Assembly: GCF_014490745.1 (NCBI RefSeq)
Contig: NZ_LZEU01000001.1
Location: forward strand, 620,001-684,000
Direction of reading: 5' to 3'
Length of the DNA stretch: 64,000 nt
Origin: Pseudomonas alcaligenes
GTDB lineage: Bacteria > Pseudomonadota > Gammaproteobacteria > Pseudomonadales > Pseudomonadaceae
Shown: in pieces, positions 10,906-44,730 of the stretch
Layout: each line of letters opens with the position of its first letter
Numbering within the stretch: the stretch's first letter is position 1
Translations under genes and position numbers: made by a program
Notes under the pieces: generated by a model
Databases searched by the model: none
Told to the model about the DNA's origin: nothing
The model's input: only the letters and a program-made list of their open reading frames with translations

Positions 10906-10992
10906 TGGTGCCCAGGAGAAGACTCGAACTTCCACGGTGTTGCCACCGCTAGGACCTGAACCTAGTGCGTCTACCAATTCCGCCACCTGGGC
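10906..10992 (-). tRNA. tRNA-Leu (anticodon CAG), copy 1
   Basis: On the - strand this is an 87-nt class II tRNA with encoded CCA. It has acceptor stem GCCCAGG/CCTGGGC, anticodon stem CTAGG/CCTAG enclosing a loop with anticodon CAG (complement of 10956-10958), a long variable arm and a TTCGAGT T-loop. It reads the codon CUG, the dominant Leu codon of this genome. It is identical to the copy 109 bases upstream on the same strand and lies just before the bidirectional terminator. Confidence 0.97.
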
Positions 10993-11100: not shown

Positions 11101-11187
11101 TGGTGCCCAGGAGAAGACTCGAACTTCCACGGTGTTGCCACCGCTAGGACCTGAACCTAGTGCGTCTACCAATTCCGCCACCTGGGC
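11101..11187 (-). tRNA. tRNA-Leu (anticodon CAG), copy 2
   Basis: This is identical over 87 nt to the downstream copy. It is the promoter-proximal gene of a two-tRNA transcript, with a good sigma-70 promoter 65-93 bases upstream on the - strand. The tandem identical pair fits high demand for CUG decoding. Confidence 0.97.
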
Positions 11188-18483: not shown

Positions 18484-18650
18484 ATCGTTACCCCGTAAAC
18501 CTACTGCGCGCAGCACAGACTGCGTCACGCGGTGCGCGCAATCCTCATGAACAGATGTTCACTCCGGTTGCTGTGCTCCGGGCTTCTTGCCTGTGCCGCG
18601 CTCGCTACGGTTTCCGGGGCAACGATGGCATGGCATGGTTTGGATCAATG

Positions 18651-30393: not shown

Positions 30394-31304
30394 AGCGCGC
30401 GCACTATCAGGTTCTCCACGACACCCATTACCGCTACTCGGCGCCGGTTTCCCTGGCCCAGCAGCTGGCGCACCTGTGGCCGAGAGACTGCGCGTGGCAG
30501 CGCTGCCTGGAGCGCCATCTGACCGTCACCCCGCAGCCGACCCGGCGCCTGGATGGCGTCGATGTGTTCGGCAACCCGCTGACCCGCCTGGCCTTCGAGC
30601 GGCCCCACGACGAGTTGCGGGTGATCGCCTGCCTGCGCGTCGAGGTGCAGGCCCGCGAGGATCTGCAGCTGGAGGATTCACCGGCCTGGGAGGAGGCGGT
30701 CGCCGCCCTGCGCTATAGCGGCCAGGCGCTGCCGGCCGAACTGCTGGAGGCGGCGCGCTACCGCTTCCAGTCGCCCTATGTGCACCTCAAGCAGGCCTTC
30801 GTTGCCTTCGCCGCCGAGTGCTTCAGCCCCGGCCGCCCGCTGCTATTGGCGGTGCGTGCGCTGATGCAGAAGATCTTCACCGAGTTCACCTTCGATGCCG
30901 CCGCCACCCAGGTGGCGACGCCACTGCTGCAGGTGCTGGAGGAGCGCCGCGGGGTATGCCAGGACTTCGCCCACCTGATGTTGGCCTGCCTGCGTTCGCT
31001 GGGCCTGTCGGCGCGCTACGTCAGCGGCTACCTGCTGACCCAGCCGCCGCCCGGCCAGCCGCGGCTGATCGGTGCCGACGCTTCGCACGCCTGGGTCTCG
31101 GTGTACTGCCCGCGCCAGGGCTGGGTGGATTTCGACCCGACCAACAACCTGTTGCCGGCGCTGGAGCACATCAGCCTCGGCTGGGGCCGCGACTTCGCCG
31201 ACGTGTCGCCGCTGCGCGGGGTGATCCTCGGCGGCGGCAGCCACGACCCGGAGGTGCGGGTCACGGTTACCCCACTGGGTGAGGCATTGCCGGCTGCGAG
31301 TTGA
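30390..31304 (+). CDS. Transglutaminase-like cysteine protease
   Basis: The 304-residue protein has the bacterial transglutaminase-like N-terminal domain (about 1-90) and a transglutaminase core with Cys190 (GVCQDFAHLM), His233 (ASHAWVSVY) and Asp249 (DFDPTNN). It is the short companion always seen beside the ATP-grasp/alpha-E gene and probably cleaves the peptide or isopeptide bonds that partner makes or needs. Its start overlaps the previous stop. Its own TGA (31302-31304) is followed with no gap by a 140-bp palindromic element. Confidence 0.9.
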   Translation: MKRAHYQVLHDTHYRYSAPVSLAQQLAHLWPRDCAWQRCLERHLTVTPQPTRRLDGVDVFGNPLTRLAFERPHDELRVIACLRVEVQAREDLQLEDSPAWEEAVAALRYSGQALPAELLEAARYRFQSPYVHLKQAFVAFAAECFSPGRPLLLAVRALMQKIFTEFTFDAAATQVATPLLQVLEERRGVCQDFAHLMLACLRSLGLSARYVSGYLLTQPPPGQPRLIGADASHAWVSVYCPRQGWVDFDPTNNLLPALEHISLGWGRDFADVSPLRGVILGGGSHDPEVRVTVTPLGEALPAAS

Positions 31305-31444
31305 GAACCTGCCCAAAGTCTGCTGCGCGTCGGCCATGCTGCGTTGAAAGCAGGCTCGGGCTGCTCATTTACAGCTCGTAAACTCCGCGCCCTCGCCTGT
31401 TTTCGCCTTGCCTGGCTCTAGCTCGCGAGACTTTGAACAGGTTC
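31305..31444 (-). repeat. 140-bp palindromic element, copy A
   Basis: This copy is bounded by GAACCTG and CAGGTTC. Nested inverted stems include CCAAAGTCT/AGACTTTG, a GCCTG/CAGGC-type stem and a TTTAC-GAGCT-GTAAA tip. It is in reverse orientation relative to copy B. It starts on the base after the transglutaminase TGA and ends six bases before the betA stop on the other strand, so it fills the whole spacer between two convergent genes and may terminate both. Confidence 0.9.
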
Positions 31445-31450
31445 TGTGCC

Positions 31451-33145
31451 TCAGGCGCTGAGGGCGCGCAGGGCGGCCTGGCGTACCGGCCGCTCGCCGG
31501 CGACGAAGTAGGCCGCCTCGCTGCGCGGCAGCGGCTGGCGCCCGCGGATGCGGTCGGCGATCTTCTCGGCGAGCATGATGGTGGTGGCGTTGAGGTTGCC
31601 GGTGATGATCTCCGGCATGATCGACGCATCCACCACTCGCAGCCCCTGCAGGCCGTGCACGCGGCCCTGGCCGTCGACCACCGCCATGGCGTCGCTGCCC
31701 ATCTTGCACGAGCAGGAGGGGTGGAAGGCGGTCTCGGCATGGCTGCGGATAAATTCGTCCAGCTCGGCGTCACTCTGCAGGTGCGCACCGGGGCTCAGCT
31801 CGCGGCCGCGGAAGGCGTCCAGCGCCGGTTGGGCCATGATTTCGCGGGTGATGCGGATGCCGTCGCGGAACTCCTGCCAGTCCTGCGGGCTGCTCATGTA
31901 GTTGAACAGGATGCTCGGGTGCTGGCGCGGGTCTTTGGACTTCAGCTGGATGCGCCCGCGGCTGGGCGAGCGCATGGAGCCCATGTGAGCCTGGAAGCCG
32001 TGCTCCTTCACCGCGTTGCTGCCGTTGTAGTTAATCGCTACCGGCAGGAAGTGGTACTGGATGTTCGGCCACTTGAACTCATCCCGGGTACGGATAAAGC
32101 CGCCGGCCTCGAACTGGTTGCTGGCGCCCAGGCCGCTGCCGAGGAACAGCCATTCGGCGCCGATCGCCGGCTGATTCCACCACTGCAGCGCCGGGTACAG
32201 CGACACCGGCTCCTTGCAGGCGTACTGCAGGTACAGCTCCAGGTGATCCTGCAGGTTGGCGCCGACGCCGGGCAGGTCGTGCACCAGGGGAATGTCCAGC
32301 TCGCGCAGCAGGGCCGCCGGGCCGACCCCGGAGCGTTGCAGGATCTGCGGCGAGGCGATGGCGCCGCTGCTCAGCAGCACTTCGCGGCGCGCCCTGACGA
32401 TCACTGGTGTATCGCCGTCGCCATGCAAATAGGCGACGCCAGTGGCGCGCCGGCCGTCGAACAGGATGCGGTCGGTGAGGGCGTGGGTGACGATGGTCAG
32501 GTTGGGCCGGCCGCGGGCCTGATCCAGATAGCCGCGGGCGGTGCTGGAGCGCCGCCCCTGCGGGGTCACGGTGCGATCCATCGGGCCGAAGCCTTCCTGC
32601 TGGTAGCCGTTGAGGTCGTCGGTGCGCGGGTAGCCGGCCTGCACGCCGGCCTCGACCATGGCCTGGAACAGCGGGTTGTTGCCGGCCTTGGGCGTGGTCA
32701 CGCTGACCGGGCCGTCGCCGCCGTGGTAGGGGTTGGCGCCGCTGTCGCGGGTCTCGGCTTTCCTGAAATACGGCAGGCAGTCCAGATAGCTCCAGTCCTC
32801 GAGACCCGGTTGTTTGGCCCAGTTGTCGAAGTCCAGGGCGTTGCCGCGGATGTAGCACATGCCGTTGATCAGTGAGGAGCCACCCAGGCCCTTGCCGCGC
32901 CCGCATTCCATGCGCCGGTTGTTCATGTACGGCTCGGGGTCGGTCTCGTAGGCCCAGTTGTAGCGGCGGCCCTGCAGCGGGTAGGCGAGGGCGGCGGGCA
33001 TCTGGGTGCGGAAGTCCAGGCGGTAGTCGGGGCCGCCGGCTTCGAGCAGCAGCACGCTGACCTCGGCATCTTCGCTGAGGCGGGTGGCCAGCACGTTACC
33101 GGCCGAGCCGGCGCCGATGATGATGTAGTCGAATTCCTGGGACAT
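31451..33145 (-). CDS. betA: Choline dehydrogenase (GMC oxidoreductase)
   Basis: BetA is a membrane-associated FAD enzyme that oxidises choline to betaine aldehyde and on to glycine betaine. The 564-residue protein has the FAD-binding GAGSAG at residues 11-16, the GMC signature [25 protein letters not shown] region near residue 80 and the C-terminal active-site region around [12 protein letters not shown] chose [13 protein letters not shown] at 33145 over a start 33 bases upstream because it matches BetA N termini. It is the last gene of the betIBA group and is separated from betB by palindromic element B. Confidence 0.96.
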
Positions 33146-33224
33146 GGACGTTCCTGTGGCCGGAGGCGCTCCGGGCAAACGCAGTGACTACGCCCGGATG
33201 GCCGGGCCATATTTTTGTGCCGCA

Positions 33225-33364
33225 GAACCTGTTTACGATCTCGCGAGCTAGCGCCAGACAAGGCAAAACTGGCCGAGGGAGCGGAGTTTACGAGCTGTAA
33301 ATGAGCATCCCGAGGCCAGTTTTAACGCGGTCTGGCCGACGCGCAGCAGATCGTAGGCAGGTTC
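33225..33364 (+). repeat. 140-bp palindromic element, copy B
   Basis: The ends are GAACCTG (33225-33231) and CAGGTTC (33358-33364). The nested stems are TTACGATCT/AGATCGTAG, GCCAGAC/GTCTGGC, AAAACTGGCC/GGCCAGTTTT and the tip TTTAC/GTAAA, so nearly the whole unit can fold into one long hairpin. Its right end touches the betB stop codon (TCA at 33365-33367 on +) with no gap. It separates betB from betA. Confidence 0.92.
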
Positions 33365-34837
33365 TCAGAACACCGAGTGGTAATCGCCCAGCTCCACCTG
33401 CACCGACTTGATCCGGGTGTAGTGGCCGAGGGTGGTCAGGCCGTTCTCGCGGCCGACCCCGGACTGCTTGTAGCCGCCCACCGGCATTTCCGCCGGCGAC
33501 TCGCCCCAGGTGTTGATCCAGCAGATGCCGGCTTCCAGCTGGTGGATCAGGCGATGGGCGCGGGCCAGGTCGCGGGTCACCACGCCGGCGGCCAGGCCGT
33601 AGTCGCTGGCGTTGGCGCGGCGGATCACTTCGGCCTCGTTGTCGTAGATGAGGATGCTCATCACCGGGCCGAAGATTTCCTCGCGCACTATGGTCATGTC
33701 GTCCGTGCAGTCGGTGAACACGGTGGCGGCCACGTAGGCGCCCTTGGCGAATTCGCCGCTGGTCACCCGTTCGCCGCCGATCAGCAGGCGGGCGCCTTCG
33801 CTGCGGCCCTTGGCGATGTAGCCGAGCACGCTGTCCATGTGCGCGAAGCTGGTCAGCGGGCCGAAGTTGGTGCGCTCGTCCTGCGGGTCGCCAAGGCGGA
33901 TGCGCTTGACCCGTTCGACCACCTTGGCCTCGAAGCGCGCCTGCAGAGCGCGCGGGATGAACACCCGGGTGCCGTTGGTGCAGACCTGGCCGGAGCTGAA
34001 GAAGTTGGCCATCACCGCGATGTCGGCGGCGCGGTCGAGGTCGGCGTCCTCGCAGATGATCAGCGGCGACTTGCCGCCCAGCTCCATGGTGACTTCCTTG
34101 AGCGACGAGCTGGAGGCGCTGGCCATGACCTTCTTGCCGGTGGCGGTGCCGCCGGTGAAGGAAATCTTCTCGATCAGCGGGTGCTCGGTGAGCCACTGGC
34201 CGACTTCCCGGCCGCTACCGGTGAGCACGCTGAACACGCCATCCGGCACGCCTGCCTCGGTGTAGATCTCGGCCAGTTTCAGCGCGCTCAGCGGGGTCAC
34301 CTCGCTGGGCTTGAAGATCATCGCGTTGCCGGCGGCCAGGGCCGGGGCGGATTTCCACAGGGCGATCTGGATCGGGTAGTTCCACGCGCCGATGCCGGCG
34401 ACCACGCCCAGCGGCTCGCGACGGGTGTAGACGAAGCTGCTGTCGCGCAGGGGAATCTGTTCGCCCTCGATGGCCGGGATCAGCCCGGCGTAGTACTCCA
34501 GCACGTCGGCGCCGGTGACGATGTCCACCGCGCGGGTTTCGCTCAGCGGCTTGCCGGTGTCGAGGGTCTCCAGGGCGGCCAGCTCGTCGTTGCGCTCGCG
34601 CAGGATATCCACGGCGCGGCGCAGGATGCGCGAGCGCTGCATGGCGGTCATCGCCGCCCAGACCTTCTGCCCCTCGACGGCGCAGGCCACGGCGCGCTCG
34701 ACGTCAGCCTGGCTGGCGCGCTGCACGCGGGCCAGCACTTCGCCGGTAGCCGGGTTGATACTTTCGAAGTGGACGCCGCTGCTGCCGTCGACATAACGGC
34801 CGCCGATATAGAGCTGCTGGTCGGGGAAACGGGGCAT
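33365..34837 (-). CDS. betB: Betaine aldehyde dehydrogenase
   Basis: BetB oxidises betaine aldehyde to glycine betaine with NAD(P)+. The 490-residue protein is identical in length to the P. aeruginosa enzyme. The catalytic Cys286 ([10 protein letters not shown]) and general base Glu252 (MELGGKSP) fall at the same residue numbers, and the cofactor motif FTGGTATGK is at 227-235. A BetI-type operator lies 74-101 bases upstream of its start. Its TGA abuts element B. Confidence 0.98.
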
Positions 34838-34910
34838 GGCGCAGTCCTCGGAAACAGGGCCGGCGCAATGGATAGGCAGCCGGCAGAGAGTGTCCGGGTA
34901 CGCTAGATGG

Positions 34911-34938
34911 TTTTTATTGAGCGCTCAATCAATAAAAA
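34911..34938. promoter_or_regulatory. BetI operator upstream of betB
   Basis: A 28-bp AT-rich site contains the perfect palindrome ATTGAGCGCTCAAT (34916-34929) inside TTTTTATTGA...TCAATAAAAA flanks. It resembles known BetI operators (ATTGA-N4-TCAAT). On the - strand TTGAGC and TAGCGT 17 bp apart could be the promoter it covers. Choline would relieve BetI repression of betBA here. Confidence 0.8.
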
Positions 34939-34973
34939 CGACAAGAGCAAGTCATGCGCGACATCGCGCCTCA

Positions 34974-35196
34974 GAACCGCTCCAAAGTCTTGCGGGCTAG
35001 AGCGATGCAAGGCGCAACGACCAACGGGAGTAACCGCGGCAGACTGGCCCGAAGGGTAAGCGCCAGCGAGTTCAACAAGCGAGGGCGCGCAGTGTATGAA
35101 CTGTAAATCAGCGGTACTCACTACGGGCCGCGCTAGCTGCTTTCCAAGCCTGCTTTCAACGCGGCAGTGCCGAAGCGCAGCAGACTCAGCAGATTC
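34974..35196 (+). repeat. Long, diverged copy (223 bp) of the palindromic element, copy C
   Basis: The ends GAACCGC and AGATTC and the segments CAAAGTCTTGCGGGCTAGAGC, CTGTAAATCAG and CCTGCTTTCAACGC correspond to the 140-bp element. About 80 bp of extra sequence is present and the stems are degraded. Its right end again touches a stop codon: the betI TGA is the complement of 35197-35199. It separates betI from the betB promoter. Confidence 0.65.
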
Positions 35197-35805
35197 TCAG
35201 TGGCGGGTGCTGGAGGTGGTGGCCTTGGCCAGCTGTAGATCGAGGTAGTCGTAGGCGATATGCAGCGCCTGCTGGATATCGAAGGTGGTGCCAGACAGCG
35301 CGCCACGCAACCACAGGCCGTCGATCAAGGCAGCCAGGCCACGGGCGGCGGCCCGCGCGTGAGCCTTGTCCAGCGCGCGGCGGAATTCGCAGCACAGGTT
35401 GGAATACAGGCGGTGGTCGTTGATCTTCTGCAGGCGCTGCAGGGCAGGCTGGTGCATGCTGGCAGCCCAGAAGGCCAACCAGGTCTTCATCGCCGGGCCG
35501 CTGACTTGGCTGTCGTCGAAGTTGCCGTCGATGATCGCCCGCAAATGCGCGCGCGGGCTGGCGTCCTGCAGCTCGAAGCGGCGCTGGCGCACGGCATTGC
35601 TCAGCGCCTGCATCAGATGGCGCATGGTGGCTTCGAGCAGGCCGTTCTTGTCCTGGAAGTAGTGGCTGATGATGCCGTTGGAGACCCCGGCGATACGCGC
35701 GATATAGGCGATGCTGGCGTCGCTCATGCCGACCTGGTCGACCGCTTCGAGGGTCGCGGCAATCAGTTGCGAACGGCGGATCGGCTGCATTCCGACCTTG
35801 GGCAT
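35197..35805 (-). CDS. betI: Choline-responsive TetR-family repressor BetI
   Basis: This 202-residue TetR/AcrR regulator has an N-terminal helix-turn-helix (about residues 30-50, [20 protein letters not shown]) and a C-terminal ligand-binding domain expected to sense choline. [15 protein letters not shown] is the BetI family N terminus. It should bind the ATTGAGCGCTCAAT site between itself and betB. Unlike many bet clusters, no betT choline transporter gene is next to it. Confidence 0.95.
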
Positions 35806-40069: not shown

Positions 40070-40581
40070 GGGACATTTCCCCTTCGCTAGGCATCCCTGC
40101 GCTGACCCGCCAACGCTGCTGCGTCCGAGGGTCTCGATGCGGATGCCGCAGGCCGCTCGGCCTGTGTGGGTGTTAAATGGTTCCTGGGCTTGGTTCGCTG
40201 CCTGCACCGCGCACCGCCAGGTCGCCGCCGGCTCCGCGCGGGGCGGGCCTTGGTCGAGCTGATGGGCGTTGTAGCAAAACCCGATCCAAACACGCTGGCA
40301 GTGTTACGAGCCCTCATCCAGTGGGCAGTCGCCTGCATCCTGCAAGCGCGTACATCCGAATTTTCTTGTTGGGCCGCCGCCCTAGGGCGTCAGGCACTTG
40401 TCTGTCTTCGGTCCGTGGCGGTGGGCCCCGGTCTGTCGGTGCTTACTGGCAGCGACAGCGACGAAATCGGCTGACTCAACGATATAGCCTTCAGCTTGCA
40501 GGAATTGTCGGTTTGCGACCCCGGCGTGCTGGGTGGCGACATGCTGCCATGCGCCTGGCCGCCCGTCCGCTTGCCTGTCGT
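40070..40581. other. 512-bp spacer upstream of cbcV, no gene supported
   Basis: This spacer should hold the cbcVW promoter and its GbdR control region. Reading frames are open on both strands, but none has a start with a ribosome site or a recognisable product. A short TGCTACAAC extended -10-like sequence lies on the - strand near 40270. I could not identify a GbdR site or a terminator for the upstream binding-protein gene. Confidence 0.5.
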
Positions 40582-43460: not shown

Positions 43461-43600
43461 GAACCTGTTTACGATTTTCTGAATTAGAGCCAGGCAAGGC
43501 AGAAATAGCCGAAGAAGCGCAGTTTACGAGTGGTAAATGAGCATTCTGAGGCTGTTTCTAACGCGGGATGGCCGCGAGTCAGGAAGTCGTAAGCAGGTTC
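43461..43600 (+). repeat. 140-bp palindromic element, copy D
   Basis: The ends are GAACCTG (43461-43467) and CAGGTTC (43594-43600). The stems are TTACGATTT/AAGTCGTAA, AGAAATAGCC/GGCTGTTTCT and the tip TTTAC/GTAAA. It is the same length as A and B but about a quarter of the bases differ, mostly in paired positions. It ends 38 bases before the gbdR start. Unlike A-C it is not next to a stop codon. Confidence 0.9.
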
Positions 43601-43638: not shown

Positions 43639-44730
43639 ATGTCGCAGCTCAATTCGGGGGCTCAACCCCAGAACACCGCTCCTCAGTCCATCGGTTTCCT
43701 GCTGCTGGACAACTTCACCCTGATTTCCCTGGCGGCCGCAGTCGAGCCGCTGCGCATGGCCAACCAGCTGTCCGGCAAGACCCTCTACCGCTGGCACACC
43801 CTGACCCGCGACGGCAGCCCGGTCTGCGCCAGCGACGGCCTGCAGATCACGCCCGATGCCGGCCTGAGCAATGCCCCGGCGCTGAGTGCGGTGATCGTCT
43901 GCGGCGGCATCGACATCCAGCACAGTGTCACCCGCGAGCACCTGCTCTGGCTGCAGAGCCAGGCGCGCCAGGGCCGCCAGCTCGGTGCCGTGTGCACCGG
44001 CAGTTGGGCGCTGGCCAAGGCCGGGCTGCTCGACGGCTACGACTGCAGCGTGCACTGGGAGTGCCTGGCATCGATGCAGGAGGCTTTCCCGCGGGCGGCC
44101 ATCACCACCCGTCTGTTCTCCATCGACCGCAACCGCAACACCGCTACCGGCGGCACCGCGCCGCTGGACATGATGCTGCACCTGATCGCCCGTGAGCATG
44201 GCCGCGAACTGGCCGCGGCAATCTCGGAAATGTTCATCTGCGAGCGCATCCGTAACGAGCAGGATCACCAGCGCGTGCCGCTCAAGCACGTGCTCGGCAC
44301 CAACCAGCCGAAGCTGCAGGAAATCGTTGCACTGATGGAGGCCAACCTGGAGGAGCCGATCGATCTCGACGAGCTGGCCTGCTACGTCGATGTGTCGCGC
44401 CGCCAGCTCGAGCGCCTGTTCCAGAAGTACCTGCACTGCTCGCCGTCGCGCTACTACCTGAAGCTGCGCCTGATTCGCGCGCGCCAGCTGCTCAAGCAGA
44501 CCACCATGTCGATCATCGAGGTGGCGGCGGTGTGCGGCTTCGTCTCCACCCCGCACTTCTCCAAGTGCTACCGCGAGTACTTCGGCATTCCGCCGAGCAA
44601 CGAGCGCGCCGGTCAGCAGGGCGCCAGTGTAGTAGCGCTGCTGCCGATTCCTGGCGAGCTGCATGGCGCCCAGTCGCTGGCACTGAGTCGCGCCCAGGGT
44701 GAATCGAGCTATGCCAGCGTGCGTCTCTGA
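43639..44730 (+). CDS. gbdR: GbdR, AraC-family activator of choline/betaine catabolism
   Basis: GbdR activates the genes for glycine betaine and dimethylglycine demethylation and choline uptake when betaine or dimethylglycine is present. The 363-residue protein has an N-terminal DJ-1/PfpI-like sensor domain (about 12-190, with VCTGSWALAKAG) and a C-terminal AraC helix-turn-helix domain (about 235-335, ending in the conserved GFVSTPHFSKCYREYFGIPP). I chose the ATG at 43639 (MSQLNSGAQ) behind GTGAGGG; the frame is open 34 codons upstream through repeat D and that part is not coding. Confidence 0.96.
   Translation: MSQLNSGAQPQNTAPQSIGFLLLDNFTLISLAAAVEPLRMANQLSGKTLYRWHTLTRDGSPVCASDGLQITPDAGLSNAPALSAVIVCGGIDIQHSVTREHLLWLQSQARQGRQLGAVCTGSWALAKAGLLDGYDCSVHWECLASMQEAFPRAAITTRLFSIDRNRNTATGGTAPLDMMLHLIAREHGRELAAAISEMFICERIRNEQDHQRVPLKHVLGTNQPKLQEIVALMEANLEEPIDLDELACYVDVSRRQLERLFQKYLHCSPSRYYLKLRLIRARQLLKQTTMSIIEVAAVCGFVSTPHFSKCYREYFGIPPSNERAGQQGASVVALLPIPGELHGAQSLALSRAQGESSYASVRL

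Follow-up and report, generated by a model that had tools for sequence, protein, structure and literature searches.

Why should a palindromic element begin, three times over and always by the same end, at the first base after a TGA stop codon? The question is raised by a stretch of 64,000 nucleotides of the Pseudomonas alcaligenes genome (contig NZ_LZEU01000001.1, positions 620,001 to 684,000; referred to as the window), in which a first-pass annotation had placed such elements behind a transglutaminase-like gene, betB and betI. Direct reading of the junctions bears this out: the TGA of the transglutaminase-like gene (31302–31304, + strand) and that of betB (33365–33367, – strand, read as reverse complement) are followed at once by GAACCTGC, and that of betI (35197–35199, – strand, likewise reversed) by GAATCTGC, with a CTGCTGCGC segment next in all three. 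Read from these junctions, the three elements also face the same way with respect to the gene ending at each.

The first element, E1 (31305–31444, + strand; 170.1 bits with a covariance model), has the standard length of 140 bp, the ends GAACCTG..CAGGTTC and a conserved core hairpin, CATTTAC-N5-GTAAACTSCGC, at 31366–31388. E2 occupies the betB/betA spacer with its left end on the betB stop (33225–33364, – strand; 164.7 bits; core hairpin at 33281–33303), and E3 the betI/betB spacer (34974–35196, – strand; 36.9 bits), with extra sequence in both arms, the ends GAATCTG..CGGTTC and a core hairpin with three mismatches (35087–35109). In each case the stop codon is the left copy of a target site, with TGT (31445–31447), TGC (33222–33224) and TGA (34971–34973) on the far side of E1, E2 and E3, respectively, so that the 3-bp duplication is intact around E3. 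We consider it likely that these elements are non-autonomous miniature inverted-repeat transposable elements (MITEs) which insert into TNA or CTNAG sites, often stop codons, and whose harmless copies are retained.

A multi-copy family that duplicates a TNA target

At least 85 copies were found in the P. alcaligenes genome (81 in the main census plus four more at loci L247–L250), and the family was present in 31 of 38 genomes, this one counted. Copies were located by BLAST, by the core pattern and by the covariance model, which was built from 54 standard copies; since 81 candidates per genome were scored, the copy total is a lower bound. The elements are short, multi-copy and bounded by terminal inverted repeats (GAACCTGTTTACGATCT) and a 3-bp TNA duplication, as is expected of MITEs. 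More distant searches of plasmids and phages gave partial matches only (seven plasmid records and one phage record), and a query of 45 bases matched nothing among plasmids.

The duplication was read from 20 loci of genomes G136, G131 and G278 that were picked by exact end match and hence referred to as young-end loci; they yielded 19 copies with both ends, two of which were neighbours met by chance within those loci, and no row for L221 and L222 (no pair of ends) or L230 (no exact core). The flanking 3-mers were identical, and always TNA, in 15 of the 18 young loci with both ends (TAA at seven, TTA at five and TCA at three, on the strand printed), the remaining three reading TGA/TGC, TAA/TTG and TGA/TGC. 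Over 146 copies, left and right 3-mers agreed at 201 positions (shuffled mean 166.6, maximum 198 in 2000 shuffles), and 21 pairs were identical (9.3 when shuffled, maximum 18).

Bases next to the TNA are also biased. A C preceded the triplet (position –1) at 78% of 50 at-stop sites versus 55% of 253 background stops, and a G followed it (position +1) at 62% versus 41%; ten copies away from stops had the C in eight cases and the G in six. In about 396 kb of this GC-rich DNA, with elements masked, CTNAG occurred 437 times in genes, 58 times as a stop codon and 73 times in other non-coding sequence, so that stops make up 58 of 131 non-coding CTNAG sites (34 of 78 when element-free spacers are taken alone). 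A plain TNA target was rejected as a sufficient cause, stops being only 141 of 1033 non-coding TNA sites. The first-pass annotation, in suggesting that the element aims at stop codons or at what directly follows them, came close: TNA is duplicated and CTNAG preferred, which accounts for part of the stop association and leaves a surplus of left ends. Further upstream of at-stop sites, C stood at position –10 in 68% of cases (background 42%), a value taken uncorrected from many positions and not used as evidence.

One end is favoured at stop codons

Of the 81 copies in the main census, 32 had the left end no more than 1 nt from a stop on the same strand and eight had the right end equally close to a stop on the opposite strand, one element doing both. 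In relatives (mainly G001, G013, G012 and G008), 61 copies drawn from the higher-scoring matches listed gave 27 and three, and the 19 young-end copies gave eight and one. Placement at stops thus exceeds chance, as had been surmised from the three window copies, with left ends above the 15–22% that target preference predicts, and the orientation that these copies share was met again in both additional samples, taken from other Pseudomonas genomes. The ends of the 81 copies were taken from the covariance-model alignment, apart from one end extended by hand in the module-bearing copies L030, L040 and L045 and a left distance set to 0 from the true end in copies 2482539 and 4799868. The counts include L054, L059, L060 and L065, for which the model's right end falls within a module and the distance and 3-mer on that side are therefore spurious, as well as the partial matches L058 and L068.

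A further 13 left ends of this genome had the stop 2–12 nt within the canonical arm. Where the left neighbour gene points towards the element, its stop coincided with the canonical left end or lay within it in 45 of 54 copies, versus 10 of 43 for right neighbours and the right end; in relatives these fractions were 37 of 44 and 5 of 23. Among 143 pooled copies with both neighbours, those between tandem genes were co-directional in 53 cases and opposed in nine when at stops, versus 10 and 18 when away from them. Between convergent genes, the left end was at a stop in 30 copies, the right in four, both in two and neither in two, and 15 copies lay between divergent genes. The stops at 51 left ends were TGA in 36, TAA in 13 and TAG in two (one TCG row was dropped because the model end was not the true end, and the TAA of 4799868 is likewise a model end). 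The rarity of TAG (2 of 51 versus 26 of 167, p = 0.03) goes with TAG not being a TNA site.

Filled and empty sites

The stop codon is native and duplicated, not supplied by the element. In 80 named loci of relatives, the core pattern had no match in the betI–betB and betB–betA spacers or in the 300 bases past betA, where these could be delimited, and yet BetB ended in SVF (72 loci) or SIF (eight), followed by TAA (39), TGA (38) or TAG (three). Among 23 relatives' betB listed, TGA (20) or TAA (three) came directly after aligned residue 490. The same end residue and a stop at all 80 loci uphold the earlier argument, made from the expected SVF terminus, that the betB stop is native. The BetI alignment ended at residue 189–191 of 197 in 10 of 13 relatives listed, so that the BetI of the window may exceed theirs by a few residues, and the transglutaminase gene was found at none of the 80 loci. 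Some of the relatives' betB–betA spacers (among them L098, L099, L101 and L104) hold other short GC-rich repeat-like sequences, e.g., GTAGGAGCGG.

Elsewhere in the genome, the stop of one gene adjoins an element flanked by TAA/TAA at locus L076 of P. alcaligenes and by TGA/TGA at G131 L231, in the same orientation but with different arms and inserts; two insertions would be a simpler explanation than parallel change of both duplicates. At one convergent gene pair, the copy in L027 of P. alcaligenes adjoins the stop of one gene, whereas that in G136 L223 adjoins its partner's. L083 of P. alcaligenes is empty, with TAA as its stop, and the same stop is filled in G131 L233 and G013 L290, and a spacer with different subfamilies in opposite orientation was met in G013 L090 and L073 of P. 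alcaligenes. Finally, L249, one of the four extra copies, has its stop inside the canonical left arm and is the one copy of this kind with an empty counterpart, G013 L256 (stop TGA); the comparison shows a native stop and a left arm that looks shortened.

Ends shared with insertion sequences

A sister subfamily with AGGTTCTG ends has those ends in common with insertion sequences (ISs) of the genus. The IS at L189 (a DUF4096 locus) has ends, AGGTTCTGTACGAAAAGT, that equal those of P. alcaligenes copy 762914 in 18 of 18 bases, and differ by one base from copy 1339226 and by two from copy 4015350; the ends at L191 are one base off those of 762914. Both ISs have CTAG flanks, a length of about 900–950 bp and a transposase gene, and their ends are unlike the GAACCTG of the main subfamily. 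Across 149 genomes, 18 of 30 DUF4096 loci (one of them, L190, at a contig edge) had TAGG..TGT at both ends and CTAG, TTAG or CTAA as flanks. We take DUF4096 to be part of IS5-like elements; within the IS5 family, the IS1031-like group has a 3-bp TNA target, and the duplication found here matches it.

For GAACCTG ends, PF13340 gave no partner (30 loci inspected, 149 genomes), nor did PF01609 (seven loci, five genomes) or end-motif scans (among the matches listed), and PF13586 had no match in the P. alcaligenes genome. In genome G029, of another family (L305–L334), the core hairpin recurs between other ends, e.g., GGGAGCATCTAAAA; a search for target duplications among these copies was unproductive. 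Ends of at least three kinds thus seem to accompany the core. On a viral contig (L185:2167-2433), an element of 267 bp shares the GAACCTGTTTACGATCT ends and is flanked by TTA/TAA, but has no core-pattern match.

Proposed insertion and retention, and the surplus of left ends

The elements would be non-autonomous MITEs, probably IS5-like, on whose inverted ends a transposase supplied in trans would act, with insertion into TNA, best within CTNAG, and duplication of the TNA. In a GC-rich genome many such sites outside genes would be TGA or TAA stops. An element landing at such a site doubles the stop without altering the protein, so that copies would persist, while gene-breaking insertions would be lost. 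A short preferred site that is often a stop would thereby offer a route to scores of copies at little harm.

How far this goes depends on how many insertions the target preference predicts at stops. With full CTNAG sites only, 44% of tolerated insertions would fall there; CTNAG as the full explanation was rejected because sites matching on one side also take insertions, and weighting by the use of sites with two, one and no matching neighbours (four, six and none of the ten non-stop copies) brings the figure down to 29%. For each end taken singly, 15–22% is expected, and right ends (10%, 5% and 5% in the three samples) are at or below it.

Several results weigh against this account. Copies at stops numbered 39 of 81, 30 of 61 and 9 of 19 versus the predicted 29% (p = 3e-4, 9e-4 and 0.08), a prediction whose weights rest on ten sites, with genes called by a home-made codon-usage caller in a census of about 396 kb around elements; once stops inside the left arm count, 98 of 143 copies are at stops. 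Left ends (40%, 44% and 42%) exceed either per-end prediction in each set (p ≤ 0.041; for the 32 of 81 own copies p = 5e-8 to 3e-4), with p-values that are optimistic because some copies occupy sites shared across several genomes. This surplus, two to three times the prediction, is outside what insertion and retention explain, as a symmetric target cannot yield left-to-right ratios of 32:8, 27:3 and 8:1. Moreover, no autonomous or full-length IS with GAACCTG ends was met among the loci examined and the matches listed, and no empty site matched closely enough on its downstream side for the target to be read off at single-base level. Since only left ends exceed the prediction, the surplus is the same effect as the one-way orientation, and it is clean and countable.

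One way to account for this effect would be host selection of a 3′ untranslated region (3′UTR) module, in which oriented at-stop copies are kept for an RNA hairpin acting in termination or mRNA protection and the others are lost; the first-pass annotation had raised such a terminator role. The left-end surplus and the one-way orientation would suit it, as would double changes in 25 of 32 predicted pairs and a compensatory A–T to G–C arm change between the filled sites G131 L233 and G013 L290. The kind of mismatches tolerated speaks against an RNA function: over 31 core pairs in 54 copies, 97 of 1673 cells were not Watson–Crick, comprising 16 G–T, 31 A–C and 50 others (pair 34–123, mostly G with T in 36 cells and never changing on both sides, was left out; with it G–T would be 52), and ten outer-arm pairs gave 34 G–T, 73 A–C and 110 others among 217. 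As G–T is two of twelve mismatch types, its shares in the core (16 of 97) and in the outer arm (34 of 217) are those expected without any preference, which argues against an RNA terminator module. At-stop copies were no better paired than others (37 of 682 versus 60 of 991 non-Watson–Crick cells), young-end loci already show the same bias (8:1), the elements had no Rfam match at gathering score, and no run of T follows the right ends of E1–E3 on direct reading, no terminator scan having been made. We therefore regard the module as quite unlikely, and constant proximity to a stop codon is no proof of a terminator. A–C was about twice as common as G–T in core and outer arm, and since A–C is G–T when read on the opposite strand, either base composition or a structure formed by that strand might lie behind it. 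Under insertion and retention, the covarying arms would reflect a need or process at the DNA level, i.e., a transposition hairpin or template-switch correction of near-palindromes.

Alternatively, insertion itself might read gene direction, which we regard as a tentative possibility given that one particular end meets the gene at stops, that CTNAG is symmetric and that there is no bias elsewhere. If true, this would need either transposition to be linked at some step to the termination of transcription or translation, or selection on mRNA 3′ ends to be very fast. A coupling in which the stop region is opened up or flagged as transcription or translation terminates, and the left end is thereby attached towards the gene, would fit the confinement of the bias to stops (53:9 there versus 10:18 elsewhere in tandem pairs, and 30 left versus four right in convergent ones), the restriction of the surplus to left ends and its presence at young-end loci. 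However, genome G029, of another family, showed 13 left and 12 right ends near stops, i.e., no bias, albeit with poorly defined ends, and the few copies of the sister subfamily had no clear orientation bias either; as we know of no mechanism that couples insertion by a DDE transposase to gene direction, we judge such coupling improbable. That the element brings the stop along, with TGA as part of its end, is very hard to credit. The A of TGA does pair with a T beyond the right arm, and the stop at copy 301210 overlaps the GA of the element, but any TNA duplication yields such an A–T pair, TAA and TAG are also found at stops, and copies away from stops have TTA or TCA there. Furthermore, E3 has TGA on both sides, as duplication predicts, and the stops standing without an element at L083, G013 L256 and relatives' betB place the flanking TGA outside the element and refute this origin as a general rule.

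Related systems

An active MITE with IS5-like ends is already known in Pseudomonas: according to the excerpted text of PMC3189936, MITEPsy1 of P. syringae pv. phaseolicola has ends like those of ISPsy2 (labelled 'IS5?'), duplicates CTAG or YTAA and transposes. It resembles the present family in its shortness, inverted ends and IS5-like link, and differs in its 100 nt, GGAAGGTCTGAAAAAGCC ends and 4-nt duplication, with no stop-codon rule in the same excerpt (PMC3189936). In P. fluorescens, several repeat families favour tail-to-tail gene pairs, and R178, a 101-bp intergenic repeat with an internal inverted repeat present in all three strains, may be related to the window element, judging from its description in the part seen of PMC2718517. 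QMITE2 of Coxiella, as described in excerpts of PMC5896051, is likewise a MITE at a gene 3′ end, lying behind enhC with a stop immediately before it in one strain; however, that is a single case without a rule, in which the stop arose by an indel and another strain has a C-terminal extension (PMC5896051). RUP and Correia-type elements are short mobile intergenic repeats, RUP being credited to an IS transposase by shared ends; its targets contain TA, and the excerpt gives no stop-codon rule (PMC2229807). REP and REPIN sequences are palindromes of 20–40 bp in the extract seen of PMC3733652.

Membership of the REP/REPIN class was rejected, given the 140-bp length and TNA duplication of the present element. 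REP and REPIN sequences are not known to make a target duplication. The titles and abstract openings searched contained no description of the window element family.

Arm variants and other features of the window

Among the end matches listed for G136 and G278, both ends of one copy often show the same variant (GAGCC/GAGCC or TTCACG/TTCACG), as if the arms had been corrected against each other. In E3, L030, L067, L051:5110-5373, L231 and L233, one arm or both contain additional nested modules, which begin GGCTTGCCGCTAACGCG on the left and GATTCGCTGGCGCTCACCCTTCGGGCCAGCC on the right; they are partly alike in inverse orientation, and at one shared site they are present in G131 and absent in G013.

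The window holds two copies beyond the three first described. One (43461–43600, – strand) adjoins no stop codon and lies upstream of a gene starting at 43639, with TGG/TGA flanks in element orientation; the other is degenerate, without an exact core (18484–18627, + strand), and was detected by the covariance model only (41.9 bits). Finally, the window contains a proV RNA (RF03045) at 40323–40463 (– strand) and two tRNAs at 10909–10992 and 11104–11187 (– strand).

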